The position numbers and the translations under genes were made by a program. Source: a virus. From it: DNA of 45,342 nucleotides. This document shows positions 13,253-37,502 of this stretch, piece by piece. Within the stretch, counting starts at the first letter, position 1, and each line of letters begins with the position of its first letter. The notes below the pieces were generated by a model. The model worked only from the letters and a program-made list of their open reading frames with translations. It did no database searches and was not told the origin of the DNA. The stretch covers positions 1 through 45,342 of IMG/VR virus record IMGVR_UViG_3300030616_000042; one strand, written 5' to 3'.

Positions 13253-13825
13253 TTATAAATATTTTATATTTTCCTTTAGGAGCCGTCTTATGCCAGCAAA
13301 TTCATTCTTCTTTGTTGCCCGTTCAAATTCTTCCATACGTCTCATCAGCACGCTTCCGTAATATCCGTTTGCGTCTACTACAAAGTTATCTCCGACGTAA
13401 ATACCTACATGTCCTACTGTGCCAGATTTTCTACTGTGTTTGAATAGTAAGTCGCCTACCTTTACTTCTCCGTGAAATTCATCACTGGCTTTATATTGGT
13501 ATCGTGATCCGTCAGGTATTTTTATTCCTATCTGATAATATAAATATTCTATAAGTTCACTACAATCTATTTGTTTTATATCACTTATTTTTGAGTCCAG
13601 TTTTACCTCTGCACCGTATTTATATGGTATGCCTAGCATGGACATGGTTAATTCTTTTATTCTGGCTTGCTGTTCTTCGGTTAGGTTTACAAACATCTCT
13701 TTCTCCTTACACTCTATACATACAAGCGTCCCGTGTAGTATTTTCCCGCACCCCCCGCATCTTATATCGTTACCACCTATTGCCACCCCAGGTTTACGGC
13801 TTCTAAACCATTTTAATAAGTCCAC
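13253..13825 (-). CDS. NlpC/P60 peptidoglycan endopeptidase (endolysin) with zinc knuckle
   Basis: 190 aa from GTG at 13825, which has GGGGG five bases upstream. An N-terminal CGGC/CIEC pair of knuckles (23-39) is followed by the NlpC/P60 fold with Cys88 (IDCSELIEYLYYQ), His139 (GTVGHVGIYVG) and Asn153 (VVDANGYYGS) as catalytic triad. Enzymes of this family cut D-Glu to diamino-acid bonds in stem peptides. There is no signal peptide, so it needs a holin-type exit. The zinc ribbon is an unusual attachment; it might aid binding to the wall or to another late protein. Confidence 0.85.
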   Translation of the reverse strand: MDLLKWFRSRKPGVAIGGNDIRCGGCGKILHGTLVCIECKEKEMFVNLTEEQQARIKELTMSMLGIPYKYGAEVKLDSKISDIKQIDCSELIEYLYYQIGIKIPDGSRYQYKASDEFHGEVKVGDLLFKHSRKSGTVGHVGIYVGDNFVVDANGYYGSVLMRRMEEFERATKKNEFAGIRRLLKENIKYL

Positions 13826-13826
13826 A

Positions 13827-13895
13827 TTAGCCCCCAAATAGTAACATAACTACATATAAAATTAATATTATTACCCATATATATAAAAATGTCAT
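13827..13895 (-). CDS. 22-aa single-span membrane peptide
   Basis: A tiny frame, MTFLYIWVIILILYVVMLLF-GG, with ATG overlapping the stop of the giant gene (ATGA) and stop one base before the lysin GTG. The ribosome binding site of the lysin is formed by its last two codons. Almost every residue is hydrophobic, so the product would be one membrane helix. It could be a minimal lysis/holin-like peptide or merely a coupling device for lysin translation. Confidence 0.45.
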   Translation of the reverse strand: MTFLYIWVIILILYVVMLLFGG

Positions 13896-19800: not shown

Positions 19801-20086
19801 TTTGCGGTGGTGTCCATTCTAGCTTGGGTGCTTCCTGGTCTTTCGGCCTGGCTAGTTTACTGGGTTGCATTTCAAGGTTGCTTTCCTTTGTCCCTTCGGT
19901 TTCCAGAAAACCCTTTGCCTTTTCATAATACTGCGTTACCTTAGATGGCTCTAGTTCTATGTCAGTTTCACGCATAGATTCCCTGGCTTTCAAAAAGTTC
20001 TGTGCTTTCTGAAAATATGCGTCAGGCTTGTTTGCACCCATTTTACTGTTTATCTTGCTTATATATTCATCTATTCTATTTGCCAT
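13892..20086 (-). CDS. Giant polyvalent ejection protein (ART-like and zincin domains)
   Basis: 2064 aa. Order: two N-terminal helical repeats (about 22-80; YFQKAQNFLKARE and YYEKAKGFLETEG); a Gly/Ala-rich membrane-like stretch (about 234-275, IGGAIAGGTAAAVGG); a region with ART-polyvalent features (about 640-830, GAYFSTEG, GYDGIKVFESDD, SSVFIWNTNKVK); a zincin metallopeptidase (HEIGH at 1156-1160, then SAKELYADT as third ligand); and a long C-terminal LPD-type region from about 1617 (SRWFRPIFVGFNLGFQSYN). Large multidomain proteins of this kind are packaged in the head and injected with the DNA. Probable roles are membrane passage and modification of host targets early in infection. No signal peptide. 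The two genes upstream encode helical ejection partners. Confidence 0.8.
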   Translation of the reverse strand: MANRIDEYISKINSKMGANKPDAYFQKAQNFLKARESMRETDIELEPSKVTQYYEKAKGFLETEGTKESNLEMQPSKLARPKDQEAPKLEWTPPQKEEFKITPEIESTKPAYEEYLKSPIKFTPKQRQEIKNAEKYNTKGILYQAIQSAKTGDINYSLGLEYYKALSGEPNRAEELEKVMQSDPNILNQQQTQYLKWKNNRGLISKFFKNSINGLASQIPMWTRSYLKGVKRGIGGAIAGGTAAAVGGQPELIPYASGAGFKVGTMHGMVENIAKLEAGHAYKEYIDMGIEPKLAGNMATAVGTVNGLLEYSQISNIFKMFGGAGNAVKNKVKKSALRKFGEVVASKAQVLAEESMEEGAQRFSTIIGGEISKEIQGGDLKKMTAPEIFKEVSDETLNGLVTFSLPVLMGIAGGTIQTMAKDSVNTVSQELPGLVNTKVGAEIAGAREPGEGVRLPGGEIVTEADKGIELEKEYISFKDTGEALEYGRSIAKDPIKVQELADERTVLLEEISELSPATQEAVNKAIDAQLLRKAHEEALKTAKPTTEPVVSLKDLKETPTLASHVLKNKKSHTKAVIKEAEKLQGKETKAQEIQKVRLMDIDNARNTYDETGTAIIAESEEYGIAVKDEGDFVAVRFGTKGLKPTGEYPQGTKSFATPDEAFAFAKNLQESIQKTQAPKAQGVSDTQIIAVRRGKIEKGGAYFSTEGTSTYYDPDAEGVDKYDIGNVKIVSAQTPEAVKVLKLALQDKSNTPKMIEEINESISEQDKNMQGYIDYHMNDGIPSIVRAAKKLGYDGIKVFESDDISDPSSVFIWNTNKVKNLKAQEKAPKDTKVVKPNTIQKTYYYDPLLEKMSVEAFGKKPEELKVSEFNEITSSYRGYSVFDEETFYKKISPHKETSTWENRTALGSDKNKQYITDGRYMIIDENIANTIRNKFWSDRLKKATKDLQKTTDMTFAQAQKRANEVVKSERSADENIPNYDQVIPKKTYKQTKPLEFIGFKSDIAPMAIYSTGKEFVNLSPSYVKMLKKYLPNMEIRATEKDEPVMLYVDKKLKGVLMPMRPDDKKPNLPMTKKGTTPSGTAFAEPISRDPEVVINTTTNLPELVRMAKDLMGSVPEIRNYMGKAIGRFYYMGTEGKIALRKDIFKKPGLPEKVLAHEIGHLVDWLPDHLMKRGNILGRLYTLTNFRKTILDDLNNEIIKTDLENLTQYWTPFDEDLNPEYTKYRYSAKELYADTISVLLNEPEKVKEIAPKFFEIWHEELGRKPEVEKAYKWLREQLTAPEEVKYARRSEEVQDMFRKGERLYAENIHQKLRMKKKLSFIIADSLIDKNMAMINKHREAVRLGKKINPEDDPVYFLEELNYVSGPITNYVEQVDNTFKILRDDGFTWEDIGEYVFHENIANSKEVVLDDNGVPKTVDKRIARPLGYTPETSKEMLNYIRRRMGENRYNKMKTQINAWHEQNKAIMEQCYEDGFLTEDQINLVRSNPKYATTQVLDYLKQYVTPSFIQQKGTFKESANPIEATTLKMMGTIRANFKNKVWRKVGDFLTQNFPEDIEKIRGYKTGKFFEFRAKPDRGLLKFKRNGKWEGYNVDPYIADTVGYTKIDVLDNMVKGLAFVNSRWFRPIFVGFNLGFQSYNLMRDFLRSVKANPHKSMLLSLIDTTKQYGKAIPHAMNRVRGVEDYLITEMRNNKILGMTYNNLIDMGDMTDFKEMEYISQRYGMTSKDTHKGILYPVKKIMSFIGDLSEVIETMPKVAGYTTLENRGIPIQERGHIVRNYWGSPDFRRFGRLGRAYNNVFLFSNAIKEGMRSTYEMAFSNPKTRSGYWYKTFWINIFPKLMMTLAGAGVYGEILKKMYDKIPEYDKTNYNCVPLWIDKEGNCVYLRLPQDEEGRIIGAMAHKIMNINKKNILRDFGDIFSVWGGQVPTFSPGITIANDILQFAQGKSPYDTWRGKPVFTDDEMKFIRTKGTIHGIPIWKFTKYELSKMGLGSLPIIGSKLRYYDQKKKPDLTPLQKMVREIPILSRYLRISKGGEKTREYEAKLQKDLPKIERRIKGIKPRKKRFKYR

Positions 20087-20909
20087 ATCTTTCCTGTATA
20101 TATTTTAGGATAGTTTCTGCTCTTGGATCGCTCTTGTTTGTTAAGGCCCAGTCGTACATTTCCTTGTCTTCAGAGTCCATTACTACCTGTGTTTCTACAA
20201 GTCTCTCTTTTCCCAGCCCTAAAAATCCTCCTTTTTTCTTTCTTATTATTGTGCCTATTTCAGAAGATTTCAATGTGTTCCCAGGGTAATGTCTCTGGTG
20301 TGCTTTCTTTATCTCGGCTGCCGTATATTGTGCGTCTTTCAGGTACTTTTCTGCCAGCATTATATCGTCATCTGTTTTGTTCTCTTTTGCCATTAATGCT
20401 TCTGCCTGATCCATATTTATGTTATACTGTTTCTGTAGATATGCCACTTCTTCGTCTTTTAGCGTTCTATTCAGCTTGTCACGTTCTATACTAAGTTTGG
20501 TTTTCGTTATGTCGGTTTCGGTGTCCCTTGTACCCTCTGGTACAAAGCTCGCCTGCATTCCTTCCGGGGTTCTCTTTACGCTTTCGGTTTCCATACCGCT
20601 TGGGGGTTTCTTCATACCCCAGTCTGTTTTTAGACCTGATTCATTTCTCTTTAATACGTCCATTGCTGATAGTGCATCTTCTGTCCCGGGTACTCTGGGC
20701 TCTTCTACCTGCATCCTCTTTTTTATATCCTCTGTTTCCTTTTTTATCCATTCCTGTTTTTGTTTTATCTTTTCTATTTTGTCCTGTAAAAGAGAGTTGC
20801 TTATCTTACTTACTGCACTCTTCATAGACTCTAATCTACTCCACTGTTTCTTGGGTTGCCACATTGCTATATCTTGTACTACGTCATAAAACTTCTGCGG
20901 TCTTGCCAT
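20076..20909 (-). CDS. Probable internal virion/ejection protein
   Basis: 277 aa, helical, with coiled segments (DKIEKIKQKQEWIKKETEDI), a disordered Pro/Thr/Glu linker (about 75-135) and a helical domain with NMDQAEALMAKENKTDDD. Its 3' end overlaps the start of the giant gene by 11 bp. By position (between tail stopper and giant protein) and composition it fits the ejection proteins of short-tailed phages. No sequence family recognised with certainty. Confidence 0.6.
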   Translation of the reverse strand: MARPQKFYDVVQDIAMWQPKKQWSRLESMKSAVSKISNSLLQDKIEKIKQKQEWIKKETEDIKKRMQVEEPRVPGTEDALSAMDVLKRNESGLKTDWGMKKPPSGMETESVKRTPEGMQASFVPEGTRDTETDITKTKLSIERDKLNRTLKDEEVAYLQKQYNINMDQAEALMAKENKTDDDIMLAEKYLKDAQYTAAEIKKAHQRHYPGNTLKSSEIGTIIRKKKGGFLGLGKERLVETQVVMDSEDKEMYDWALTNKSDPRAETILKYIQERYGK

Positions 20910-20919
20910 TATATCCTCC

Positions 20920-21897
20920 TTATATTACTGCTGCTATTACAGCCGGTGCTACTGCCTCTACGAAACTCCATAGCTGGTCTGCTAGTTCCGGCTTTCCGGC
21001 TTCTGCTAATTCTTTCGTAAGGGCTTTATATTCTTCCCAGTCTGCGTTGTCCCATGCCCTCTGTAGTCTTATATAAAAATCTTTTAATTTTACGTCATTT
21101 ATCATATCTATAGCCTGGTCTCTTACTTTACGTTTATACATATCAAGCTGAAACTGTTGGTCGGCTTTTAGTTGTTCTTTGGCTGCTTCACTCTGGGCAA
21201 AGGTCATGCCTCTCTGTAGGGCTTGCCCCATCTGGGTGTTTATTCTGTCTACGTCGTTTTCAGCTAGTTCCAGTTGCATGGCAGTCTTCTTTGCACCAAA
21301 TTCCATTGTCAGTCGGCCTACGTCTTTTATTTTGCCTGTATCAAAAGACCTTCCCATAGCACCCCATTCTTCACTTAGGTCTTTCATGGCCTGTTCGTAT
21401 TGCGGTTGCATTATTGTGTCTACGGTCTCTTTGTAAGATGCTATCTTTTCAGGTGTTACTCTCTCTATTCCTTCGCCTCTTATTAGTCCACCTTTACCAT
21501 CTTCACCGAATAAGATTTTCTCTATTTCCTGTTCCTGTTCGGTCATTTCGGGTTCGTATATGGCACCTTCTGGTTTTACTTCACCCATATATGGTATATC
21601 TATTTTTTCTATTACGTCCTCTACTGTGCCTACTTTTTCTTCGGCTGTTCTGGCAGCATAATCCCTTGCTTCTTTACTACCGCTTACCCATTCTTGCCAG
21701 TGCCCTACATCTGCTGTGTTTGCTCTTGGTAGCCAGTGTGTCTGCCATTCCTGTTCTGTTAATTCTCTACCTAAAAATTGATTATACCAGCTTTCTAAAT
21801 CTGCTCTTTTATCTGCATATTCGGGTGCTGTTTCTTCTGTTACGCTTTCGTCTAGGTCTCGTAAATATTTATCCATTTCTTCTTGCGACGTTGCCAT
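20920..21897 (-). CDS. Probable internal virion/ejection protein with hydrophobic tail
   Basis: 325 aa, acidic and helical, rich in Gln/Glu (FAQSEAAKEQLKADQQFQL), ending in a short hydrophobic segment (SFVEAVAPAVIAAVI). The composition is that of ejection proteins that form a channel through the envelope. It follows the signal-bearing tail genes but has no signal itself. Good ribosome binding site AGGAGG before ATG. Function inferred from context. Confidence 0.6.
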   Translation of the reverse strand: MATSQEEMDKYLRDLDESVTEETAPEYADKRADLESWYNQFLGRELTEQEWQTHWLPRANTADVGHWQEWVSGSKEARDYAARTAEEKVGTVEDVIEKIDIPYMGEVKPEGAIYEPEMTEQEQEIEKILFGEDGKGGLIRGEGIERVTPEKIASYKETVDTIMQPQYEQAMKDLSEEWGAMGRSFDTGKIKDVGRLTMEFGAKKTAMQLELAENDVDRINTQMGQALQRGMTFAQSEAAKEQLKADQQFQLDMYKRKVRDQAIDMINDVKLKDFYIRLQRAWDNADWEEYKALTKELAEAGKPELADQLWSFVEAVAPAVIAAVI

Positions 21898-21906
21898 AAT
21901 ATCCTC

Positions 21907-24291
21907 CTATCTTAATTCCTCTAAGGGTTCTAAATGATATATGTATATTGCTTTCCAGTCATAATACTCGTTTGCGTTGTTGTTTCCTATTCCAAGCTGT
22001 ATTGAATATCCCTTTATAGGCGGGAAATTACCTCTATCCCATATGTTAGATCCATCAGATTTATATAAGTATATGTCTTTATTCATAATTATATCACCGC
22101 TTGAAGCGTTTAATGTATAGCCCCAGCTTAAATTCCATTCACCGGAGTCGTCTGCATACGCATATACGCATGTATAGTCTTTCTCGTTAAATATGTTCTT
22201 GCCGTGCATTACAGGGCTATATACATAGGATTCATACGCATTATCTGTATCAGAGTACGTGTCGTCTACGTCTATTCTATATGTCCTTCCTGTCGTATTG
22301 TCACCTAAATATCCGTAATCTCTGAATGTTCCCATAGTATAAGGATATATATTAGTATAGACATTTTTAGTCCATGCAAAGTCCTGGTTACATACCCATA
22401 CTACACCGTTCTTTGTCATACCCTCGGTTGTTACTGCTATCATATAGCGTGAGTTCTTTCCATCATCATATACCATAGCAGATACAGGGTTTGTGGCATC
22501 ACTTTCGTACCAGTTTATTGTTACCTGGTCTATTTGTGGTGTAGCCCACACATCAGTTGTAGACATACTCGCAAACCATAGTATATACGGTGTAGACGTA
22601 GTATTTATTTCATATTCCGGGGTTACAGCTACAAGACTATTCGTACTAGTTCCACCGGAGTAAGTTGATACACTTACAAACCAGTCTATATCGGTTCCAG
22701 TAGGTTTATTTGTTTCCGCTTCAAATGTACCCCAAGATTTTATAAAGTCGCCTGCGTCTTTTTCGTCCGATTGATATTGTCCAGATGTATAATACATAGA
22801 CATATCTCCATACATACGATATGCAGCCTCTGTACCACTTATTGTCCCAGTACCAGACCAAAAATAATATTCTGGACTAGTTACGGTAGATTTTACAACA
22901 AGATAATATGTTGTTCCAGCAGTTATTGATAAATTCCAATCATAAAAATCTGCTAATACACCAAAATTAGCAATATTACCACAAGGATTTCCTTCTGTGG
23001 GTGGAGCCGGTAATTCGTTGCTTAAATCTAATGTTGTACCATCTATAGATTGTGAAGCTATCAATACATTATCAGCATCTTCTAATTGTACTACTATATC
23101 TTCTGTTCGGTCGCTAGATTCAGCCATTGCTAGCGTTATTGTTGATAAACGCAAAATAGTAAAAGTAGATAACACTATGGTTGTTTTTCTTTCGTTATTT
23201 TGTACTGCTATGTTTTCAGAAAGACATCCATATGGACTAATTCTTCTCAAAGAATCATATACAGTATATGAAGACATCACAATGCTTCCGGGTGTCGTGG
23301 TTGTGTCTATGTTTACCCCTTGCCCTTCTCCAAAGTCCAGAGATGTTGTTTTAGTCCAATACGATTTACTGGGTTTCAGTTGTGCCAGGTCTTTTAGTTC
23401 ACCGCTTATGTTTCGTGATACTATGTTATATTCTACGTCAGAGTCAGAGGTGGTTTTCATATGCACTACACCTTTATGGCTTAAAAACTGTATACCACTA
23501 TTGAATATCTTTATACTTGTGTCATATAGTGCCCCTAGTTCACTTGTTACCATTCTTACAAAAAAGTCGCTTGTTTTAGTTGAGCCGTATACATATTTCC
23601 ATATAGTCGCCCAGATTGAGTAGTTCTTAAATACATATAATATTCCGTTATGTACTATCTGGCCTGTTATTATGTCACCGTCATTCTCTCCTACATATGT
23701 AGAGTCAAAGAACGTATTAAATATCTCGTTACGTGCGTTTGAATAATACAGTCTGCTCCTGTAGTCAGCTACACCGCTTCCCCAGAGCCTTTCCTCGTAT
23801 ACGTCTATATATCTAAATTTAGGGAAAGTAGATGAGCTTATTACTACCCCGTCTTTAAAGAAATATACGTCATTATATCCGTTTGTTATTATTGTGAAGT
23901 CGCCAAAGGTCGTAAAGTCAGGCAAATAGTTAGCGTTTAGAGTTGATATTAATACCGTCCAGTTACCATCACCTGTGGTATAGGACATTGTTGTTCCCTT
24001 TACTTTTAGTAAATACCTGTCACCATCTGATTCCCAGTGGTCGTGATAGCCCAATACGTTACCGCTAGATGTCTGTACGTTATCGTAGTTTATTACTCCA
24101 CGCCTTTTGTTTACCCCACCCGTTTCGTCTATATGTGCGTTCAGTATCTTGGGTGCATATCCCTGGGGCACCATATCAGCTTCTACGTCGTTCTTTATAC
24201 CTTTATATGGCGGTGTAAATGCTTCCGGTACCTCTTGGTATTGTCCGTATAATGGTAAAGCAAATAATATCAGTAATATAAGTTTTTTCAT
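21907..24291 (-). CDS. Tail stopper/tubular beta-rich protein with signal peptide
   Basis: 794 aa. A Sec signal (MKKLILLILFALPLYG, cut after LYG) precedes a long beta-rich protein. The start of the mature part, FTPPYKGIKNDVEADMVPQG then GGVNKRRGVINYD, matches the P22 gp10-like/T7 gp12-like tail protein group, which plugs the portal and carries the tail fibres; blade-like repeats follow. Two lone Cys lie in the mature region. A signal peptide on such a protein is not normal and is part of the block-wide pattern described in findings. Stop and start are coupled to the fibre gene upstream (TAATG). Confidence 0.75.
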   Translation of the reverse strand: MKKLILLILFALPLYGQYQEVPEAFTPPYKGIKNDVEADMVPQGYAPKILNAHIDETGGVNKRRGVINYDNVQTSSGNVLGYHDHWESDGDRYLLKVKGTTMSYTTGDGNWTVLISTLNANYLPDFTTFGDFTIITNGYNDVYFFKDGVVISSSTFPKFRYIDVYEERLWGSGVADYRSRLYYSNARNEIFNTFFDSTYVGENDGDIITGQIVHNGILYVFKNYSIWATIWKYVYGSTKTSDFFVRMVTSELGALYDTSIKIFNSGIQFLSHKGVVHMKTTSDSDVEYNIVSRNISGELKDLAQLKPSKSYWTKTTSLDFGEGQGVNIDTTTTPGSIVMSSYTVYDSLRRISPYGCLSENIAVQNNERKTTIVLSTFTILRLSTITLAMAESSDRTEDIVVQLEDADNVLIASQSIDGTTLDLSNELPAPPTEGNPCGNIANFGVLADFYDWNLSITAGTTYYLVVKSTVTSPEYYFWSGTGTISGTEAAYRMYGDMSMYYTSGQYQSDEKDAGDFIKSWGTFEAETNKPTGTDIDWFVSVSTYSGGTSTNSLVAVTPEYEINTTSTPYILWFASMSTTDVWATPQIDQVTINWYESDATNPVSAMVYDDGKNSRYMIAVTTEGMTKNGVVWVCNQDFAWTKNVYTNIYPYTMGTFRDYGYLGDNTTGRTYRIDVDDTYSDTDNAYESYVYSPVMHGKNIFNEKDYTCVYAYADDSGEWNLSWGYTLNASSGDIIMNKDIYLYKSDGSNIWDRGNFPPIKGYSIQLGIGNNNANEYYDWKAIYIYHLEPLEELR

Positions 24292-25022
24292 TAGTTTATT
24301 AAAGTTACCGACATAAAGGTTAAACTTGAACCCCCGTCTATGTCACTCGTCCCAGCTCCGTCATTATGATATGTATATAATTCTATGTATTGTCCTGCAA
24401 CTGCATATACCAAATCACTAACTTGCACACCTATTTGGTCTGTATTATTTGCTGTATGCCCTCCAGCAGAGGAATACGCCGAACCATTCACATAAATCAA
24501 GGCATAATACGTTTTATCTGCCACTATATTTATATATCTTATAGAGGCATTTACTTGATAATATCCGTTTACCGGAGCCACAAACCTATAATTGCTTGTA
24601 TCAAAATCAGCATTTAAGTCAAAATTCTCTACGTTAATATTTACCTTAACTAACGTTGTATTCGCTATGTTTTCCTGATCGGCACTTAAATACGCCCTCG
24701 CACAGGATTGTGCGTTTTGTGTTACTATTCCGTCATTGTTTACGTATATGCCGTCATTCCCGCCATCTTCCAGTAATTTAAGTCCATTACTATCCCTTGC
24801 ATGTATTTCCTTATACGATATGGTAGAATACTCTAAATCATATAACCTACTTTCTGTTGAGTCAGTAGATGTGTTTACGTCATTCTGCCAACCTTCCAAA
24901 GTGTCCAGTCTTGTTTCACAGCTTCCGGTAGACGTTGCTATTTCGTCAGGATCTACGTAAGGCGTTTCAAATGTTACCGCATATGATATACTTGGTATTA
25001 ATAATATTAGTAGCCATTTCAT
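24291..25022 (-). CDS. Tail-fibre-like C1q-domain protein with signal peptide
   Basis: 243 aa. Signal MKWLLILLIPSISYA, a short heptad region (RLDTLEGWQNDVNTSTDSTE), then a C1q/TNF-like jelly roll (about 105-243: NYRFVAPVNGYYQVNASIRY, YYALIYVNGSAYS, QYIELYTYHN and SLTFMSVTLI). In phages such trimeric domains form receptor-binding tips. One base overlap with the tail-stopper start. Export signal unusual for a virion fibre. Confidence 0.75.
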   Translation of the reverse strand: MKWLLILLIPSISYAVTFETPYVDPDEIATSTGSCETRLDTLEGWQNDVNTSTDSTESRLYDLEYSTISYKEIHARDSNGLKLLEDGGNDGIYVNNDGIVTQNAQSCARAYLSADQENIANTTLVKVNINVENFDLNADFDTSNYRFVAPVNGYYQVNASIRYINIVADKTYYALIYVNGSAYSSAGGHTANNTDQIGVQVSDLVYAVAGQYIELYTYHNDGAGTSDIDGGSSLTFMSVTLIN

Positions 25023-25029
25023 TTATGCC

Positions 25030-25248
25030 TCACACTAGTGATGCCCTTATAATAAAAAATGCCATACTTAATATGCTCACTATTATTACGCTTAAAGCCC
25101 ATTTTAAATAGCTTAAACTTTGTGAGTTGAGCTTGCCTTTAGGACATCCGTCTTTTACTATGTCCTCTACCTTAGTGTGCATATCTGTAACTTTGCTCTG
25201 GATTATCCCTACACTTACAAGTAATTGGTTCTCTTGTTCTTGGTTCAT
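25030..25248 (-). CDS. Tail-anchored membrane protein (72 aa), holin-like
   Basis: N-terminal soluble helix with QNQLLVSVGIIQSKVTDMHT-like coiled pattern, one Cys, and a C-terminal membrane helix (about 49-71, YLKWALSVIIVSILSMAFFI). Similar layout to small phage holins and to XhlA-type proteins (coil plus C-terminal helix). Coupled by ATGA to a 36-aa membrane peptide upstream. It sits within the signal-peptide block, so it may instead help place the exported tail proteins. Confidence 0.55.
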   Translation of the reverse strand: MNQEQENQLLVSVGIIQSKVTDMHTKVEDIVKDGCPKGKLNSQSLSYLKWALSVIIVSILSMAFFIIRASLV

Positions 25249-25355
25249 AGCTTCCCTAACATTAGTAAGATTATAAACGCCATAAAGTTAAATACCTGTG
25301 CCGGTATATATACATAAATGAAAAACTTTGCCATTAGATTCATTGCAAGTTTCAC
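25245..25355 (-). CDS. 36-aa membrane peptide, GTG start
   Basis: GTG at 25355 with AAAGGAGAG upstream, beginning four bases after the stop of the upstream signal-bearing gene and overlapping the next gene by ATGA. The product (VKLAMNLMAKFFIYVYIPAQ, then VFNFMAFIILLMLGKL) is two short hydrophobic segments. Together with the 72-aa protein it may form a holin pair. Function inferred only from topology. Confidence 0.5.
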   Translation of the reverse strand: MKLAMNLMAKFFIYVYIPAQVFNFMAFIILLMLGKL

Positions 25356-25356
25356 T

Positions 25357-25770
25357 CTACTCTCCTTTTGGCGTAGATTCTATAACATCATAATCTTTAG
25401 GTATAGAATTAAATGTTGTGCCTTCCCATGTCTGATATTCGCCAAATCTGTTTTTCTTTGTAACCACGTTACCAGATGATAATTTTGTTATATACTTATT
25501 ATCATTTAGAAACTTGAATACGTTTCTTTCGTCAATGACTTGAGGGGTAATCCAAACAATAGCATATTTACCGTTTTCTGAAAAATCTAGTCTGGTTAGT
25601 CTAAAGGGTTGTCCCTTTGCTTTAGTTATATTTCCGGCACCATAATTTGCTAAATCCTTAACGTCATACGGGCCATGTGAAAATATATCCAAGTCAATTA
25701 AATAAGTGTACATTTCCTGTGCAGAACATATTGAAATAAACAGTAACAGAAAAATAAGTGTTTTTCTCAT
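25357..25770 (-). CDS. Signal-peptide protein of tail block (137 aa)
   Basis: Signal MRKTLIFLLLFISICSA, cut before QEMYTYL. The mature part is a small alpha/beta domain (YAIVWITPQVIDERNVFKFL, then TKLSSGNVVTKKNRFGEY) with no Cys. Start overlaps the previous gene by 4 bp. A tail accessory or envelope protein by context; unrecognised. Confidence 0.6.
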   Translation of the reverse strand: MRKTLIFLLLFISICSAQEMYTYLIDLDIFSHGPYDVKDLANYGAGNITKAKGQPFRLTRLDFSENGKYAIVWITPQVIDERNVFKFLNDNKYITKLSSGNVVTKKNRFGEYQTWEGTTFNSIPKDYDVIESTPKGE

Positions 25771-26501
25771 CTTATGTATTTTCCTTTTGTAGTATTGTAA
25801 TTATCTGCTATTTCGCCCTCTGTAAGTATTCTTGTGTATATTATGCACTCATCCAATACACCCTTAAAACTATGGTCTGACGGATTACCGCCCGAGTGCC
25901 CTATGCGAAACTCTTGGTTTATCGCTGTAGTATCGGTTGTTACCGCTGCCGCCGTCGCTACAAGTTTATCGTTTTTATATAGCTTAGCGCATCCGCCTAA
26001 GCCCCACGTAACAGTCCACATACTCCATTTATCTTTGTCCCATAGGTCTGCCGTCATAGCGAGTACAGCTCTCTGTTCCGCACCCTGATTCCATCCGCAG
26101 TAAAAATTATTGTCGGTATATTTATAAGCTACAAAATATTTTCCGGATGTCTCTGTTCCCCATAAAAAGTAACCCCCAGAGTCATAGGTGTCGGCTGGTT
26201 TCGCCCATATACTTATCGTACCGCTTGAAAGTCCCAGCTCGTTAGTCATCCCACAATCCACATGAGTTTCTTCCAGTCCGTCTACCAGATATACGCCTTT
26301 ATCAAATTTGCCATCTACCCACGCTATTACTCCTTCCAATGTTCCATAGTCGCCATTACCAATACATTCTTTTATTTCTGTTCCTGTACCTTCGTTAAAT
26401 CGCCACATGGCGTAAATATCCTGTGCCTTGCTGTTACCACTTCTGCCATAACATAACTGATTTAATATCAGCACAATAAAAATCAATAGTATTTTTTTCA
26501 T
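25767..26501 (-). CDS. LamG/concanavalin-like fibre protein with signal peptide
   Basis: 244 aa. Signal MKKILLIFIVLILNQLCYG, then a jelly-roll domain: YAMWRFNEGTGTEIKEC, FDKGVYLVDGLEETHV, GTISIWAKPAD, WSMWTVTWGLGGCAKLYKN, FRIGHSG and FKGVLDECIIYTRILTEGEI. This is the LamG/Laminin_G_3 pattern used for glycan binding, so it probably binds the host surface as a tail appendage. Several Cys (CIGN, DCGM, YCGW, GCAK, ECII) could form disulfides if exported. Confidence 0.75.
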   Translation of the reverse strand: MKKILLIFIVLILNQLCYGRSGNSKAQDIYAMWRFNEGTGTEIKECIGNGDYGTLEGVIAWVDGKFDKGVYLVDGLEETHVDCGMTNELGLSSGTISIWAKPADTYDSGGYFLWGTETSGKYFVAYKYTDNNFYCGWNQGAEQRAVLAMTADLWDKDKWSMWTVTWGLGGCAKLYKNDKLVATAAAVTTDTTAINQEFRIGHSGGNPSDHSFKGVLDECIIYTRILTEGEIADNYNTTKGKYIR

Positions 26502-26511
26502 ATACCTATCC

Positions 26512-27819
26512 CTATTCGTATATTAAGTTTACTCCTGCACCTACTTGTAAATCCCCTCCTGCCGTAGATACAGAGTTTACAAACAAACCAATATATGTAT
26601 TCACTGCTGTGGTTGAGGATATTGATATAGGATCGCTTTTTACAGTATTTGCACCTAATGTTACAAGGGATAACTGAGTCCATACCGGAGGATCTAATGT
26701 GTTCGTTCCGGTAGATGTCATTACCTCAAATTCTACTGCCGCTACTGTACCTGCGTAAAGTGAAAATGCCTGTAGTTGCTTAATATCCCATGCTTCCTCT
26801 ACAAATACCATATCTATCGGGGTAGTAGTAGATTTATATATATCTGATATAAACCCGCCTAACTTTAGAGTAGAACTGCTACTGCCACTAGCACTTATTC
26901 CTGTTAGATTAGAACCGTCACCATAGTATGCGTTTGCTGTTACATCTCCTGCTATATCCAAGTTACCGTTAGAAGCTGTATTGGTTGAGGTGTAGGCTGT
27001 GTCAGGATGATAGGATATGTCCCCATTGGGTGCTATTTTTATACGAGTTACAGGATCTTGAGTGCCATCGGTAGACGTTCTAAGCAATAAAGCAGTCGGC
27101 ATATCGTCGCTACCCGGAGTGCCATCCACTACCGCCCTTATTTGTGCGCCGATTGCCGCATCCGTTCCGTCCCATCCCGCAATTTCAATTTGTCCTAAGA
27201 CCATACCGTCTGTAACTAACGCCGGAGAGGCGTGCGTGCCGCTTGCCCTTACTATGACAAAAGTAGGACTATGCGAGGACGATGCTCTATCCATATACGC
27301 TACATATCTATTAGCCGTATCATTTCCATGAATTGACAAATCAAATGTTTTTACTGTACCATTTACGGTCATTGTTTGATGAGTATCATCCCCTATATCT
27401 AAAGATTTTACTGTTGTTGAACCGGAAAATGTACCATAGGATGCCGTTAATTCATCTACTGTTAGGTCGTCCATGGTATAGTCGCCGAATAAATCTCCGC
27501 CAGTGGAATTAAATGTAGAGGTATAAGACTTATAAGGAAATATCCTTACGTGTGGATCGTCTGTTACTATCAGTCTCGCCTCACCGTCAGCCGTAAATCC
27601 TATCTGGTCTGAAGTTACCCGGTATATGCCTGTGTTATCGTCATCAGTAAATGTTATACTAGGATCTGTTGCTGTACCGTTAGCAAAATACCCTAATCCG
27701 CTTATTGTAATGTTTGTAAACGTCGGTGTTAGCGGATTAATATAAGGATTCTGTGTGTCTAATCCCCACGCTGTAACCGTACATACTCCTACTAATAGAA
27801 TTATTAGATACTTTTTCAT
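26512..27819 (-). CDS. Tail fibre/spike-like beta protein with signal peptide
   Basis: 435 aa. Signal MKKYLIILLVGVCTVTAWG. The mature protein has the FTDDDNTGIYRVTSDQIGFT-type repeat of phage fibres, Thr/Ser/Asp-rich beta segments (TMDDLTVDELTASYGTFSG, YYGDGSNLTGIS) and a C-terminal jelly-roll-like domain. The YGDGSNLTGI motif is typical of fibre shafts before a tip domain. Likely a receptor-binding fibre. Confidence 0.7.
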   Translation of the reverse strand: MKKYLIILLVGVCTVTAWGLDTQNPYINPLTPTFTNITISGLGYFANGTATDPSITFTDDDNTGIYRVTSDQIGFTADGEARLIVTDDPHVRIFPYKSYTSTFNSTGGDLFGDYTMDDLTVDELTASYGTFSGSTTVKSLDIGDDTHQTMTVNGTVKTFDLSIHGNDTANRYVAYMDRASSSHSPTFVIVRASGTHASPALVTDGMVLGQIEIAGWDGTDAAIGAQIRAVVDGTPGSDDMPTALLLRTSTDGTQDPVTRIKIAPNGDISYHPDTAYTSTNTASNGNLDIAGDVTANAYYGDGSNLTGISASGSSSSTLKLGGFISDIYKSTTTPIDMVFVEEAWDIKQLQAFSLYAGTVAAVEFEVMTSTGTNTLDPPVWTQLSLVTLGANTVKSDPISISSTTAVNTYIGLFVNSVSTAGGDLQVGAGVNLIYE

Positions 27820-27831
27820 GTTGTTCCTCCG

Positions 27832-28275
27832 TTATGGTAGTAAGTCTTCGCTCTTTCCTGCGGGTTCTTTTCTAAGTTCAAAAAGTGATATGGTAGTAGA
27901 TGATACAGGACAAAGCCCATATATAGGACTGTCGTTGCGTTCATCTATTATTACCGATTCTCCTGGTTCAAGTAAATATCCTGTACTCATATATCCGTTT
28001 GCTTGGCTTACGCCTGTTACTACTGCAGTAGATATTACTACAGACGTATCTATAAACAGATTATATCCGTCACTCCAGTTCTTTATAATAACCTTGTTCA
28101 GCATATACTTGGCAGCCGCAGATGATATTATTACCTGCCCTACGCCTTCGTTATATCCGATAAATTTACTCTTGGCATCCGCCCATTTCCCGCCTTCCTG
28201 TGCCACAGATAAAGGCTCTACTGCACTTGCTACGCTTGCTACTAACATCATTAAGATTACTAATACCTTTTTCAT
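27832..28275 (-). CDS. Signal-peptide beta protein of tail block (147 aa)
   Basis: Signal MKKVLVILMMLVASVASA (textbook ASA cleavage site). The mature part is a small beta protein (GQVIISSAAAKYMLNKVIIK, YNLFIDTSVVIST, YLLEPGESVIIDE), as in small tail or fibre-attachment subunits. It lies between the head-tail adaptor and the fibres. Unrecognised family. Confidence 0.6.
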   Translation of the reverse strand: MKKVLVILMMLVASVASAVEPLSVAQEGGKWADAKSKFIGYNEGVGQVIISSAAAKYMLNKVIIKNWSDGYNLFIDTSVVISTAVVTGVSQANGYMSTGYLLEPGESVIIDERNDSPIYGLCPVSSTTISLFELRKEPAGKSEDLLP

Positions 28276-28286
28276 TTACTTCCTCC

Positions 28287-29063
28287 TTATTTATTCCTTG
28301 TTCCGTCGTATTCCTCTGCTATCAGTCCACCCCGATAACTAGAGTTTTTTGGTACCTCTATAGACATCATTACTACACCTTCCCTATATAGCTTATAGTA
28401 GTCACTGGCTTCACTTGTCCTTTTCTGGTCTCGTTTACACCACGCTACTGTTCCATATATTATAAGATGATGGTATGGCTCCAGGTATTCTACACCGTTA
28501 AATGGTACAGATGTGTCTCCTGATAGGTCAGGGGTTTTCATTATATATCGTATTCTTAAAAAGTTCGTTCCGGTATGGCTTACGTTAGGTGAGGGATCTA
28601 TTCCTATTACTACGTTCTTAGATGTATACCGTATATAGTATTTCTCTGGTTCCTGGCCCGCATCATCTTCCCAGTATTCGTCCTCTGCAAATAAGGACTC
28701 TAATGTAGTGGGTTGCAGTATCTCGTAATATGTCGTGCCCCGTGTGGTTGATTGGTATATAGACGCTTCCTGCATAGCCAAAAAGTCGTCTGGCAGGTCG
28801 TATTCTACCTGGGTTGAGATGGTAGTTATATATCCTTCCCTGTGGGTTACTCCGCTTTTTCTGCATACGTCCTTGTGAAATATCTCTATTCTTGTATTCA
28901 GTTGGTCGTCAGTCCAACGGACTTTGTTTGCGTCTATGTCACCGTTAGAGTCTGTTATATAGTCGTTTGTTAAAAGTCTTACCTCTTCACGTATTTCACT
29001 TAATGTCAGAGCAAATACATTTGTGGCTAAACCTAATACTAATAGTATTGTTAGTTTTTTCAT
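28287..29063 (-). CDS. Head-tail adaptor (connector) with signal peptide
   Basis: 258 aa. After a clear Sec signal (MKKLTILLVLGLATNVFA) comes LSEIREEVRLLTND, VRWTDDQLNTRIEIFHKDVC, EYDLPDDFLAMQEASIYQST and YHHLIIYGTVAWCKRD. This is the helical adaptor family (tail-tubular-A/gp6-like) that binds beneath the portal in podoviruses. The adaptor must meet the portal of a DNA-filled cytoplasmic head, so an export signal is the most puzzling in the block. Confidence 0.75.
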   Translation of the reverse strand: MKKLTILLVLGLATNVFALTLSEIREEVRLLTNDYITDSNGDIDANKVRWTDDQLNTRIEIFHKDVCRKSGVTHREGYITTISTQVEYDLPDDFLAMQEASIYQSTTRGTTYYEILQPTTLESLFAEDEYWEDDAGQEPEKYYIRYTSKNVVIGIDPSPNVSHTGTNFLRIRYIMKTPDLSGDTSVPFNGVEYLEPYHHLIIYGTVAWCKRDQKRTSEASDYYKLYREGVVMMSIEVPKNSSYRGGLIAEEYDGTRNK

Positions 29064-29078
29064 AGTATAATTCCATTA

Positions 29079-29130
29079 GGGGAACAAGAAGCTCTCTGGG
29101 TTATCTATATATTTGGTGAGTCTTGTCCCC
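29079..29130 (-). promoter_or_regulatory. Intergenic stem-loop in tail operon
   Basis: Minus strand GGGGACAAG (29130-29122) pairs with CTTGTTCCCC (29088-29079), one bulge, 33-nt loop, between the 29139 and 29063 genes. No U-run follows, so it is probably an mRNA processing or stability hairpin, not a terminator. Confidence 0.5.
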
Positions 29131-29138
29131 CTGTTTAT

Positions 29139-29852
29139 TTACCATCCAGTTGGTGTCGAGCTGCCGTCTACCGCCTGTACAAATTCTCCTGCTCCAGTAC
29201 CGCTAGATACTACTATAGCGTTATTGGTAGAGTCAAAGTAAATCTCTCCAGCCCTTGAAGGTGTAACGGCTTTAAGTTCATCTTCCGTTCCTTCAGGTAT
29301 GCAAAGTCCACCGTCAAGATTACCATATCCTCTCTCAAACCAGAATCCATACAACAGTTGAAGTTCCAGATAGTCATACTGATCCAGTATAACTTCATCT
29401 GCTGAAAGGTTTACCAGCGTTCCAGCCAGGTCGTCAGTACCTTGTATAGTCAGTGAATGAGTGCTGAAATTTACAAGAGTTATCTTCGTTCCTGATGTAA
29501 AACTGGTAGTGCTTATTAAAGGCTCGGCTTCTGATTCAATATCAGATGTCATTGTAAGCAACATTACTCTGTCCGTAGGTACGATTGCTGTTCCGGTTGC
29601 AGATATTACCTGCGTTCCAGATGCTTCTATCAGTAATCCGTCTAAAGTCATGTTTCCTGTTAAACTTACAGATTCACCTATCGCATCAATATAAGCCGTT
29701 CCATCAATATACAAATCTTCCCACTCAAGCGAACTTGAACCTAAATCATAGGTTCCGTCTGCATGAGGGAGTACATCAGCTCTGCGGTGAGATCCTGCTG
29801 CAAAGCAATTCACAGCCATTAACATAATTAATGGGAGTATCATTTTCTTCAT
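29139..29852 (-). CDS. Fibre-like protein with signal peptide (237 aa)
   Basis: Signal MKKMILPLIMLMAVNCFA, then HADGTYDLGSSSLEWEDLYI, the PDGDGTYDLGS-type motif repeated in phage tail fibres. Central Thr/Ser-rich beta region, and a final DSTNNAIVVSSGTGAGEFV. First gene of the signal-peptide block after the capsid genes. Likely a fibre or head fibre; export signal again unusual. Confidence 0.65.
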   Translation of the reverse strand: MKKMILPLIMLMAVNCFAAGSHRRADVLPHADGTYDLGSSSLEWEDLYIDGTAYIDAIGESVSLTGNMTLDGLLIEASGTQVISATGTAIVPTDRVMLLTMTSDIESEAEPLISTTSFTSGTKITLVNFSTHSLTIQGTDDLAGTLVNLSADEVILDQYDYLELQLLYGFWFERGYGNLDGGLCIPEGTEDELKAVTPSRAGEIYFDSTNNAIVVSSGTGAGEFVQAVDGSSTPTGW

Positions 29853-29867
29853 TATCTATCGCCTCCT

Positions 29868-30266
29868 TCATTTAGGAGTTACCCTTCTCCTTTTCTTGTA
29901 TGCTTCATCCCTTTCTGCTTTTTCTTTTAAACGTTCTTCTTTTGTTTTTTCAATCTTCTTCAGGTCTGCTTTTTCAACCAATTCTAAATCGTCCTCGGTA
30001 AGAAAGTATTTCTCTACTTCTTTCTTGTCCTTGTTAAATTTGTACGCATCACTTACATACTTTAACGGATTGGTTATTATTTCTTTCAATTCCACCGTTC
30101 CTTCAAGTACATAAATTTTGTTGTTTGGTATCATCAGCCTCTTGTCAGAAGTGTCTTTTACGTTCTGTACTTCAACGCATACAAAGCCATTCTTCTGTAA
30201 CTTGTCAGCCAACTTAGACCTTCTGGTACATATTACTACTTTCTTCTGCTTTCCCTGTTCAGACAT
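29868..30266 (-). CDS. Hypothetical protein following capsid genes (132 aa)
   Basis: N-terminal alpha/beta part (KKVVICTRRSKLADKLQKN, IYVLEGTVELKEII), then a long Lys/Glu helix (DLKKIEKTKEERLKEKAERD) and a basic end. Overlaps the previous gene by 8 bp. Located where head-completion proteins usually are. Unrecognised. Confidence 0.6.
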   Translation of the reverse strand: MSEQGKQKKVVICTRRSKLADKLQKNGFVCVEVQNVKDTSDKRLMIPNNKIYVLEGTVELKEIITNPLKYVSDAYKFNKDKKEVEKYFLTEDDLELVEKADLKKIEKTKEERLKEKAERDEAYKKRRRVTPK

Positions 30267-30600
30267 AAACTTTTGCCTCCTTCCTTAATCGGACTAGTTC
30301 CTCGTCATTATCTATGTAACTACACTCTTTTAAGACCTTGTTCTTTATGGCTTCCATTTGCGGGCCACTCAATCTTTCGTGTACTCCCCACAATGTATAC
30401 TTAGGATAAGGCCTCTTCTTAGTGGTAGTCGTAGCTAACAACTCAAAACCTTTGTTTTTGATTAGATACTCTGCCAGCTCCCTGTCAAAAGTCTTATATA
30501 TCCTCTTCCTATATGTCCTTACTTCACCGTGACTACATCTGGTTACGTAAGGTTTCCTAAGAAAATCCGTATATGCTCTGTTGTTAAACTGGTCAAACAT
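30259..30600 (-). CDS. Hypothetical head-completion region protein (113 aa)
   Basis: Basic; starts MFDQFNNRAYTDFLRKPYVT, middle YRKRIYKTFDRELAEYLIKN, end ELVRLRKEAKVYV. Lies between capsid and tail genes. No recognised family. Confidence 0.6.
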   Translation of the reverse strand: MFDQFNNRAYTDFLRKPYVTRCSHGEVRTYRKRIYKTFDRELAEYLIKNKGFELLATTTTKKRPYPKYTLWGVHERLSGPQMEAIKNKVLKECSYIDNDEELVRLRKEAKVYV

Positions 30601-30608
30601 ATTTCCCC

Positions 30609-30866
30609 CTACTCATTGTCGGCATTCTCGTAAGAAAAAGATCGGCCTAAAGCATTAAGAAAATCTTTCAGCTTTTTGCCCCACCTTCGTTCTTCCGGCC
30701 ATTTCTCCCGTCTTCGGCCTCGGTGCGTAGCATACCATTTACCCTCTACCTTCATACAGTTAGGGTATTTACGGTCTTCTACTTCATCTTTGGCTATCAG
30801 TCCAAATCTGGGCTTGCGTGAATGTCTTATCATATTATAAGGGGGCAACGCCAGGGTAAACGTCAC
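30609..30866 (-). CDS. Small basic protein after capsid gene (85 aa)
   Basis: GTG at 30866 with GGAG seven bases upstream; an ATG at 30833 is the alternative but has only CCCCC before it. Arg/Lys/Trp-rich (WYATHRGRRREKWPEERRW). The 5' end is covered by the hairpin 30841-30870, which would hide the GTG. Unrecognised. Confidence 0.55.
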   Translation of the reverse strand: MTFTLALPPYNMIRHSRKPRFGLIAKDEVEDRKYPNCMKVEGKWYATHRGRRREKWPEERRWGKKLKDFLNALGRSFSYENADNE

Positions 30867-30881: not shown

Positions 30882-31934
30882 TTACGAAGTTGAGAATTTT
30901 GATCCCGTGAAGAATCTCCAGTTATGGAAACAGCAACCTATAGACCACTCAATCGTGGCACAATATGTCCTGTTACGTTCATCCTCAAAGAAATTCAGTT
31001 TCGGCTCTAAACCCATAAGTGCGTAAACACCTTTTTTCTTGCAACCGAAGAAATACGCATCTGTATCGGTAAGGAAATCCCACCTTACAGGCTGTACGTA
31101 GTTATTCAGTACGTTGGTGTCGTTATCGTCACTTCCGGGAATATTCACTGATTCCAAAAGTCTACGGATTGTAAATTCAAGCTGTTGAGGATAAAGGACG
31201 TAGTTCATTCTAATAGAAATCACTTCGTCGTTTTCATCCCTGTTGTTTGTTCCCTGTGCAAGATTCAAGATTGTTTCAAAGTTGTCTGCGGTCGCTTCAA
31301 GTGCGTGACCGTTATAATATGTCCCTCCACCCTTAGAAGAACGGGTATTATTAGACAAATTGAACAAAGGCTCTGCATCATACAGTACGTCTCCGCTAGA
31401 GTCTGTTACAGCACCAGATTCCGGTGTACCATTGAAATACCTGTGTCCAGCAGTCTTTCCGCCTTCATTGAAGAAAGTCGCAAAGAATGTGTTACGGGTA
31501 GTTTTAAGGCTTCCACCCCAAATCCTGGCCTGTTCTTTTGTGATGTCTTTGATTTTCTGGTGATAGTTTACCGTGTTCTTGGACACTTCTATCATGTCCG
31601 TGAAAGTAAACATACGAGAATATACCGTATATCCTTCTGTCGGTGTCCTGGGGGAGAAACCCTCTGATTCTGCTGTTTCCCTCATTGTACCCAATCCAAC
31701 TACTGAAGTCGTCTGGAAATATTCTCTTGATTCCTTTTTAACTTCCATTATGTCTCTCCAAGGTTCAGGAGTAAGATCATAATTTTCTGCATCCCACATA
31801 TATCCGTAATTCTCGTCTATCATCCCTTTTGTGAAGTTCTGTGTAAGTCCGATTGCAAAATGGACTGCACCTATTCTTGCCATGAATGACATGAGAATCT
31901 CATATAATCCATCTAAAAGCATTTTTTTAAACAT
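30882..31934 (-). CDS. Major capsid protein (HK97-like)
   Basis: 350 aa. Pattern of HK97-fold capsid proteins: N-terminal helical arm (MFKKMLLDGLYEILMSFMAR), SRMFTFTDMIEVSKNTVNYH (E-loop/spine-helix region), MNYVLYPQQLEFTIRRLLE and PVRWDFLTDTDAYFFGCKK (A-domain), and VYALMGLEPKLNFFEDE near the C-terminus. It has the perfect eight-base GGAGGTGA ribosome binding site, shared only with the two decoration-like genes just upstream, as expected for an abundant virion protein. The hydrophobic N-terminal arm is unusual, but it is not a signal peptide. Confidence 0.85.
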   Translation of the reverse strand: MFKKMLLDGLYEILMSFMARIGAVHFAIGLTQNFTKGMIDENYGYMWDAENYDLTPEPWRDIMEVKKESREYFQTTSVVGLGTMRETAESEGFSPRTPTEGYTVYSRMFTFTDMIEVSKNTVNYHQKIKDITKEQARIWGGSLKTTRNTFFATFFNEGGKTAGHRYFNGTPESGAVTDSSGDVLYDAEPLFNLSNNTRSSKGGGTYYNGHALEATADNFETILNLAQGTNNRDENDEVISIRMNYVLYPQQLEFTIRRLLESVNIPGSDDNDTNVLNNYVQPVRWDFLTDTDAYFFGCKKKGVYALMGLEPKLNFFEDERNRTYCATIEWSIGCCFHNWRFFTGSKFSTS

Positions 31935-31963: not shown

Positions 31964-32476
31964 TTACGCAAGTCCTTTAGCACAAATTACGCTTGCTGTA
32001 GTTCCCGTTATATTCCTTCTCGTTATCACTGTGTTGTTAGCAGAATCAGCTTCATAAGCTCTGAAGTCTACTATCTGCAATATGTCGTATGTACTGGCAT
32101 CAAGGTCAGCATACTGCACATTACTTGTTACCACTATATCACAGCTTTCCCACAATACGTCCAGAAGATCCGCTGCAGACTGTGCTGCATCTATAGGCAT
32201 TTCATAGATTGTGTCTAATGAAATATCTACATTAATCTTCGTTACTTCGTCTGTAGAGCTGGTTGTAATAGCACCACACATTGCCCATCCGTTTATATTA
32301 GTAGTAGTCGCTCCGCATACCACCACTCTTCCAGCATCAGCATCGTTTGATACCCATTTTCCACCGCTATTAGTGAATACTTCGCTTGCACCCGTAGGTA
32401 CGTTTATCACTATAGGATTTCCTGCTATCAAACCAAATACTAATGGTCTTTTGTGTAATTCTGATGTCTTTCCCAT
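31964..32476 (-). CDS. Capsid decoration-like protein, paralogue 2
   Basis: 170 aa, beta-rich, about 70% identical by eye to the protein encoded by the adjacent gene. KRPLVFGLIAGNPIVINVPT, DADAGRVVVCG and IYEMPIDAAQSAADLLDVLW are shared cores. Placed immediately before the capsid gene with the same GGAGGTGA ribosome binding site, as for cement/decoration proteins made in capsid-like amounts. The two copies differ most in the middle (TTTNINGWAMCG). Confidence 0.65.
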   Translation of the reverse strand: MGKTSELHKRPLVFGLIAGNPIVINVPTGASEVFTNSGGKWVSNDADAGRVVVCGATTTNINGWAMCGAITTSSTDEVTKINVDISLDTIYEMPIDAAQSAADLLDVLWESCDIVVTSNVQYADLDASTYDILQIVDFRAYEADSANNTVITRRNITGTTASVICAKGLA

Positions 32477-32502: not shown

Positions 32503-33015
32503 CTAATCACCTGCACCCTTTGCGGTTATTACGCTTGCCGTAGTTCCTGTTATATTTCTTCTCACTATCACAGTGTTATTAGCAGAATCAGACAAATATG
32601 CTCTAAAGTCTACTATCTGTAATACGTCAGTTGAGCTTGCGTCAAGATCCGCATACTGGTACGTGTCTACAGCTATATCACAGCTTTCCCACAGTAAATC
32701 AAGCAAATCAGCAGCAGATTGTGCTGCGTCTATCGGCATTTCGTAAAGTGTATTTAGTGAAATGTCTATATCTATCTTTGTTGCTTCCTCTGTAGCAGAG
32801 CATGTTTTATCGCCTACCATCGCCCATCCGTCTATGACAGCGGCACTTGCCCCTGCCGAAATTACCCTTCCGGCATCAGCGTCGTGTGTAACCCATTTAC
32901 CACTAAGGTTATAAAACACTTCATCTGCTCCTGTAGGAACATTTATCACTATAGGCGTTCCAGCTACTAATCCAAAAACAAGTGGCCTTTTGTGTGACTC
33001 TGAAGTTTTTGCCAT
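32503..33015 (-). CDS. Capsid decoration-like protein, paralogue 1
   Basis: 170 aa, tandem duplicate of the 31964-32476 gene; KRPLVFGLVAGTPIVINVPT, DADAGRVISAG and LYEMPIDAAQSAADLLDLLW align without gaps. GGAGGTGA ribosome binding site. Located between scaffold and capsid. A two-copy cement could sit on different lattice positions (for example hexons and quasi-axes); this is inference. Confidence 0.65.
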   Translation of the reverse strand: MAKTSESHKRPLVFGLVAGTPIVINVPTGADEVFYNLSGKWVTHDADAGRVISAGASAAVIDGWAMVGDKTCSATEEATKIDIDISLNTLYEMPIDAAQSAADLLDLLWESCDIAVDTYQYADLDASSTDVLQIVDFRAYLSDSANNTVIVRRNITGTTASVITAKGAGD

Positions 33016-34719: not shown

Positions 34720-34953
34720 TCACCTCGCATATCTTAATGATTTTATTATCATGTCCCTGTTACCTATACATCTTAATTCGCCTGCTGTCAGTATGAATAT
34801 GTCGTCTTCGTACAAGTACATTGTATATCTGTGCAAATTTATTGGACAAAACTGGTTAAATAACGTCTCGTTAAATTTAGGGTTATCAGTTTCAAATTCT
34901 GCCAGACCTACTTTTCTTGCCAGCTCTATTAATTCAAATACCTTATCTCGCAT
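34720..34953 (-). CDS. Hypothetical protein after portal gene (77 aa)
   Basis: Small alpha/beta protein (LIELARKVGLAEFETDNP, MYLYEDDIFILTAGELRC). Its start overlaps the portal 3' end by 11 bp. Unrecognised. Confidence 0.55.
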   Translation of the reverse strand: MRDKVFELIELARKVGLAEFETDNPKFNETLFNQFCPINLHRYTMYLYEDDIFILTAGELRCIGNRDMIIKSLRYAR

Positions 34954-37408: not shown

Positions 37409-37502
37409 TTCCTAGTGCCCTAAATACTTCCCCGTATTCTTTCATTGCACGCTTTATTACCTTGCGTATACGTTTTTTGTCTTTTTCCGTTAGTTTATTC
37501 AT
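37359..37502 (-). CDS. Possible 47-aa basic helical protein
   Basis: ATG at 37502 overlaps the terminase stop (CATGAATAA). Basic helix LTEKDKKRIRKVIKRAMKEY and a Lys/Ser-rich end. No good ribosome binding site close by, so translation would depend on coupling to terminase. Confidence 0.4.
   Translation of the reverse strand: MNKLTEKDKKRIRKVIKRAMKEYGEVFRALGNEQDKTIKTYKSESKS

Follow-up and report, generated by a model that had tools for sequence, protein, structure and literature searches.

The window analysed here is the whole of IMGVR_UViG_3300030616_000042, one uncultured IMG/VR contig of 45,342 bases, and its subject is a tail block of ten genes running on the minus strand from 29852 down to 21907. 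Eight of the ten, among them the genes for the head-tail adaptor and the nozzle, begin with textbook Sec/signal peptidase I (SPase-I)-type N-termini. The corresponding open reading frames (ORFs) are indeed open in frame from the starts at which the original prediction had placed its eight signal-bearing products. They are listed below in the order of transcription, with the segment coding for the signal peptide (SP), the predicted cleavage site (marked by a slash) and the family matches with their E-values (E).

29139..29852, minus strand: SP and a 219-aa fibre/decoration-like protein; signal 29799-29852, NCFA/AG; AGGAGG Shine-Dalgarno (SD) sequence; phrog_36222 matches the mature part (E 9e-4); flagged by the scanner described below
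28287..29063, minus strand: head-tail adaptor with SP; signal 29010-29063, NVFA/LTLSEIR; SU10_adaptor over residues 20-229 (E 6.6e-17)
27832..28275, minus strand: SP and a 129-aa beta-rich protein with no assigned role; signal 28222-28275, VASA/VE; AGGAGG SD; flagged by the scanner
26512..27819, minus strand: SP and a tail fibre; signal 27763-27819, TAWG/LD; phrog_18345 tail fiber (E 1.5e-16), phrog_9942 tail fiber (E 6e-13)
25767..26501, minus strand: SP and a LamG/ConA-like lectin-domain protein; signal 26445-26501, LCYG/RS; PF13385 (E 1.4e-17), phrog_8510 virion structural protein (E 1.2e-14)
25357..25770, minus strand: SP and a 120-aa protein with no family match; signal 25720-25770, ICSA/QE; tightly coupled to two small membrane genes
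24291..25022, minus strand: SP and a short-fibre-like protein with a C-terminal virion/fibre domain; signal 24978-25022, ISYA/VT; phrog_12754 (E 1.4e-8), phrog_13989 virion structural protein (E 1.3e-5), phrog_35360 tail fiber (E 1.9e-4)
21907..24291, minus strand: nozzle/stopper (tail stabilisation protein) with SP, 794 aa; signal 24244-24291, PLYG/QY; family profile (E 7.5e-29)

The features that define a Sec/SPase-I signal in sequence, namely a positive n-region, an uncharged hydrophobic core and a small residue at position -1, are present in all eight N-termini (MKKMILPLIMLMAVNCFA, MKKLTILLVLGLATNVFA, MKKVLVILMMLVASVASA, MKKYLIILLVGVCTVTAWG, MKKILLIFIVLILNQLCYG, MRKTLIFLLLFISICSA, MKWLLILLIPSISYA and MKKLILLILFALPLYG): each starts with Met followed by Lys or Arg, has a hydrophobic core of 9-16 residues and shows Ala or Gly at -1 after 15-19 residues. 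We scored the window with a rule-based scanner that requires a positive n-region, at least nine uncharged residues with a mean Kyte-Doolittle value of at least 2, and a small residue at -1. It flagged 8/9 block genes (a 36-aa ORF at 25245-25355 was left out of this count) versus 2/46 other curated minus-strand genes (Fisher P=3.2e-7). N-termini with shuffled residues pass the same rules at 0.5%, and none of the structural proteins of SU10, P22 and T7 does. What the scanner flags in T7 and P22 are Rz-type genes; in the Bacteroides/Cellulophaga phages B124-14, crAss001 (part) and phi38:1 (part) it flags 1, 1 and 3 proteins, respectively, none of them annotated as structural. Taken together, the enrichment, the shuffle rate and the control phages led us to reject chance. 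The scanner also agrees with the earlier observation that the neighbouring capsid, portal and ejection proteins lack signals, and the same holds for the scaffold and terminase products.

The signals could still be an artefact of start assignment, and start codons downstream of the hydrophobic segments had been named as a possible objection to the original prediction. We rejected such starts, since early alternative start codons are missing from the key genes: the first 60 codons of the adaptor and of the fibre starting at 27819 contain no other ATG, GTG or TTG, and the earliest alternatives elsewhere are codon 40 in the nozzle and codon 42 in the gene starting at 25022. Upstream in-frame starts are absent from all eight genes. 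Strong, near-perfect SD sequences (AGGAGG/GGAGG) precede the starts at 29852, 28275 and 27819, and the nozzle start at 24291 overlaps the preceding stop (TAATG). The starts of the adaptor, the nozzle and the main fibre are firm and not movable. A recently copied leader cassette was likewise rejected, as both the codons and the sequences of the signal peptides differ among the genes.

Signals ahead of the adaptor and nozzle cores

An alignment search with the window terminase yielded 68 viral loci and six loci in bacterial genomes, and these terminase relatives provided adaptors and nozzles for comparison. In the window adaptor the SU10_adaptor match, which is above the curated cut-off, starts at residue 20, corresponding to profile position 2. 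In the alignment, adaptors of the terminase relatives start with MLISEIRDEI or MLISEIINEL, and the window protein has 18 extra residues ending in NVFA and then continues with LTLSEIREEV. In other words, the predicted cleavage site coincides with the position of the relatives' initiator Met. For the nozzle, a profile built from 11 nozzle/stabilisation proteins matches from residue 25 onward; proteins of this family either hit phrog_3287 (virion structural protein) or carry the annotation 'phage stabilization protein', and a tblastn search with the window nozzle leads to the 'phage stabilization protein' of MW202497. The original prediction had proposed aligning homologues to see whether the signal is an addition ahead of the family core, and by alignment for the adaptor and by profile for the nozzle it is: the signals are added in front of complete family cores. 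AlphaFold models of the nozzle (pLDDT 31) and of the 147-aa protein at 27832..28275 (pLDDT 50, low confidence) were unusable.

A separate kind of N-terminal extension is seen in the adaptors of loci L022, L089 and L091 (near 9865, 7837 and 14016, respectively), which are ~320 aa long and have an extra N-terminal domain before the SU10_adaptor match, MANEISGVAATGNTAYAIV...

Gene order and known phages

On the minus strand the terminase is followed by the portal, the capsid candidate, the tail block, the ejection-type proteins and the endolysin. These genes, together with the two small membrane genes of the block, are as follows.

37495-38844, minus strand: terminase TerL; phrog_2 (E 1e-28)
34943-36874, minus strand: portal; SU10_portal (E 2.1e-14, above the curated cut-off)
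30882-31934, minus strand: capsid candidate, from position and weak PHROG matches
25245..25355, minus strand: 36-aa protein with a single transmembrane (TM) segment, holin-like candidate from sequence reading; GTG start; no family match; position of the SU10 'putative holin'
25030..25248, minus strand: 72-aa protein with a hydrophilic N-terminus and a C-terminal TM segment, XhlA/hemolysin-like candidate; weak match to phrog_1193 (E 0.031); position of the SU10 'lysis protein'
20920-21897 and 20076-20909, plus a 2064-aa protein, minus strand: probable ejection-type proteins, from position
13253-13837, minus strand: NlpC/P60 endolysin (E 1e-16)

Several other genes of the window are worth pointing out. 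SP-like N-termini also occur at two places beyond the block, 11644-12063 (139 aa) and 2208-2597 (129 aa, with a lipobox-like LTSCN); these products are possibly of spanin or lipoprotein type. The capsid gene is preceded by two tandem paralogues of 170 aa (31964-32476 and 32503-33015), which are decoration-protein-like. At 41877-43846 a radical SAM gene adjoins a group-1 glycosyltransferase gene, possibly for surface or virion modification.

The closest known arrangement is that of Escherichia phage SU10 (Kuravirus), in which the adaptor attaches to the portal and is itself bound by the nozzle (PMC9509320). Both phages have the SU10_portal and SU10_adaptor families, and the SU10 order of adaptor, long fibres, holin/lysis genes, short fibre and nozzle matches that of the window, the holin/lysis identity in the window being weak (E 0.031). 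In the SU10 annotation a 'putative holin' and a 'lysis protein' lie between the long fibres and the short fibre/nozzle. In the window the two small genes overlap by ATGA, and the pair is coupled to the SP gene starting at 25770. The original prediction had counted all ten block genes as membrane-targeted tail genes; the remaining two do encode small membrane proteins, but from their SU10-syntenic position we consider them better candidates for a holin/lysis-type pair than for tail parts. SU10 tail proteins have no signal peptide, whereas the window adaptor, nozzle and fibres have signal-type N-termini, and the fibres and nozzle of the window either have no relation to those of SU10 or are strongly diverged in sequence. 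The tail module thus appears to be a variant of the SU10 type that differs by its export-type signals.

The same roles are known from other podoviruses. P22 gp4/gp10 and T7 gp11/gp12 act as adaptor and nozzle/stabilisation proteins and close the filled head in the cytoplasm; unlike the window pair, these tail completion proteins have no signal peptides according to the scanner. Virion proteins with Sec-type signals are characteristic of filamentous phages (Inoviridae), which assemble at the inner membrane and are extruded without lysis. Filamentous phages share with the window virion-type proteins bearing such signals, but they have no capsid, terminase or portal, whereas the window has terminase, portal and capsid-type head genes. 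Since TerL and the portal are present and the major capsid candidate has no signal, the window does not conform to filamentous-type assembly. In tailed phages Sec signals are known on lysis proteins, for example SP-endolysins (PMC8951688). SP-endolysins and spanins likewise have phage-coded Sec signals; however, they are single lysis proteins and not virion components. The view that no such pattern is established beyond filamentous phages held up: Sec signals on the adaptor, nozzle or fibre set of a tailed phage were nowhere described in the open-access papers searched, and the only phage Sec precedents in the open-licence literature were filamentous phages (PMC4823517) and SP-endolysins (PMC8951688).

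Fibre-type genes of the terminase relatives

SP genes in the tail block are common among close terminase relatives. Four consecutive ones follow the adaptor in L024, three lie between capsid and adaptor in L091, several surround the nozzle in L094 and L096-L097, and other loci have them too. Their products are fibre-like, LamG-/lectin-like or decoration-like. Examples that resemble the window are IMGVR_UViG_3300018080_003095, 3300022673_000047, 3300020195_000192, 3300020215_000038 and 3300042731_004234, which have runs of 2-5 such genes, although their adaptors and nozzles, unlike those of the window, have no signals. The signal pattern that had been described for one tail block is therefore not confined to this phage, as relatives share it on fibre-like proteins; the part peculiar to the contig is the signals of the adaptor and nozzle. 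In five fibre/decoration-type families that span records (at least two records each), all full-length members keep a signal-type N-terminus. Across five homologue pairs the signal peptides are 21-65% identical and the mature parts 32-58%, with the signal peptide being the less conserved in 3/5 pairs. Drift of the signal sequence with its character kept is expected under functional rather than sequence constraint. When records with >4.5 kb downstream of the terminase were split by terminase score, 14/23 scoring >250 and 1/16 below had at least one flagged gene of at least 90 aa (P=7e-4, or P=0.002 without one of the 14 that is probably a false positive); the records are not independent, and the score threshold was picked post hoc. 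From these comparisons, fibre export would seem to be a feature of the uncultured group of terminase relatives.

The bacterial genomes with a related terminase belong to Elusimicrobia, Deltaproteobacteria, Zixibacteria and Gastranaerophilales, and host inference failed. A search for SU10_adaptor in these genomes found none, and the Elusimicrobia loci, the nearest of the bacterial ones, have no SP tail genes. Two of them, L107 and L108, are prophage-like; the longer one, L107, has a tail block without signal peptides. One viral terminase ORF (L014:957-3272) is 771 aa long versus ~450 in relatives, and its homology stops near residue 211, possibly owing to an intein or inserted element.

Only the terminase query gave relatives; scans of viral contigs with the adaptor, portal, nozzle, capsid and giant protein gave none. 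No close relative of the window terminase, portal, capsid, adaptor or nozzle was present in the collections scanned. Against INPHARED, tblastn found no match for the portal, capsid and adaptor and weak matches for the nozzle and terminase. PDB sequence searches were uninformative, with no direct match of the nozzle to a solved nozzle.

Site of tail assembly

Based on these observations, the reading we consider most likely is that the tail-block precursors would be exported via Sec, cleaved, and joined to heads already filled with DNA, either as the membrane opens or thereafter, or at a membrane docking site; we assign this reading a probability of roughly 0.48. We infer export, cleavage, and the site and timing of assembly as follows. 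The eight products would be synthesised as precursors bearing Sec signals and delivered to the inner membrane, which they would cross, with host signal peptidase I trimming them. The adaptor, nozzle and fibres would then gather beyond the inner membrane, either in the periplasm or on the membrane's outer face. Heads would be formed and filled with DNA in the cytoplasm, and they would meet the tail when lysis opens the membrane or, just before that, at a membrane docking site. In related phages the fibre, lectin and decoration proteins alone would be exported and the adaptor and nozzle would stay cytoplasmic; here the boundary would have shifted up to the portal. The more general proposal, that head and tail are built in separate compartments, with Sec export of every tail part between adaptor and fibres, both included, and a wider uncultured group exporting its fibres, is put forward tentatively.

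A number of results weigh against export of the whole tail. The adaptor and nozzle signals rest on one contig and are so far known only from it: among terminase relatives, 0 of about 9 distinct adaptors and 0 of 16 distinct nozzles have a signal (the nozzle of L091 trips a lax rule with MGAKLNIALPVLGL, which is not a proper signal). The original prediction was to fall if close relatives had an adaptor or stopper without signals; all recognised relatives do lack them, but they are distant (adaptors are 16-20% identical) and cannot refute it. The split of the records by terminase score depends on a threshold picked post hoc. Pooled over all the terminase loci, the difference between genes downstream of the terminase (24/422 with SP) and other genes (12/370) is not significant (P=0.12). 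Mature SP proteins show no disulfide-type enrichment in cysteine, a content that is uninformative as an export signature. Finally, once exported, the adaptor and nozzle would be unable to close a head lying in the cytoplasm as they normally do, and we identified no plug that could stand in for them. Export of both would require another means of retaining the packaged DNA until joining; the small proteins encoded between the capsid gene and the block (30609-30866, 30259-30600 and 29868-30266) are conceivable candidates for such a plug.

The sealing problem would be eased by the main rival explanation, membrane tethering, in which the N-termini stay in the inner membrane, uncleaved or slowly cleaved, and packaging and tail attachment take place at a membrane-bound factory. 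Signal-bearing adaptor and nozzle would then be kept near the portal, and several c-regions (CYG, AWG, LYG) are indeed less canonical than AxA. Nonetheless, cleaved signals typically have a short core and a small -1 residue, the start of the adaptor family core coincides exactly with the predicted cleavage site, and the orientation of the K-K n-region and h-region, if not inverted, places the C-terminal domain on the non-cytoplasmic side. We regard tethering as unlikely, if deserving of attention. Less probable still is a secreted, non-virion role, with the fibre, lectin and decoration-like proteins coating the host or its surroundings as adhesin, decoy or receptor mask. LamG and fibre-type domains are adhesin-like and it is precisely this class that the relatives export, but the genes sit inside a late structural operon in SU10 order, and such a role leaves unexplained the signals of the adaptor and nozzle, neither of which has a known role off the virion. 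We give slightly less credence to cryptic or inefficient signals, with cytoplasmic assembly as in other podoviruses and the hydrophobic residues hidden within the protein or clipped off by a protease of the phage. This explanation fits the cytoplasmic type of adaptor and nozzle seen in every recognised relative; against it, the likelihood of 8/9 by chance is negligible, signal character is kept in relatives while sequence diverges, and a buried structural role needs no K-K, core and small -1 residue in eight unrelated proteins. An artefact, be it from a chimeric contig, misplaced starts or frameshifts, is very improbable even for a single uncultured contig whose terminase, portal, capsid and nozzle have no close relative in the scanned collections, since open frames, SDs, tight overlaps and a lack of alternative starts in key genes extend over 8 kb, SU10_portal, SU10_adaptor and the nozzle share a strand and keep the conserved order, and independent contigs carry the same kind of SP genes.

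Assembly of tailed phages is taught as wholly cytoplasmic, with the adaptor and nozzle plugging the head right after packaging. If Sec export of the tail is true, head and tail assembly would be spatially separated in a tailed double-stranded DNA phage and its relatives, which raises the question of how packaged DNA stays in until the tail arrives. The virions would have receptor-binding proteins folded in the periplasm. Should export be shown, this would be categorically new in the cell biology of phage assembly.

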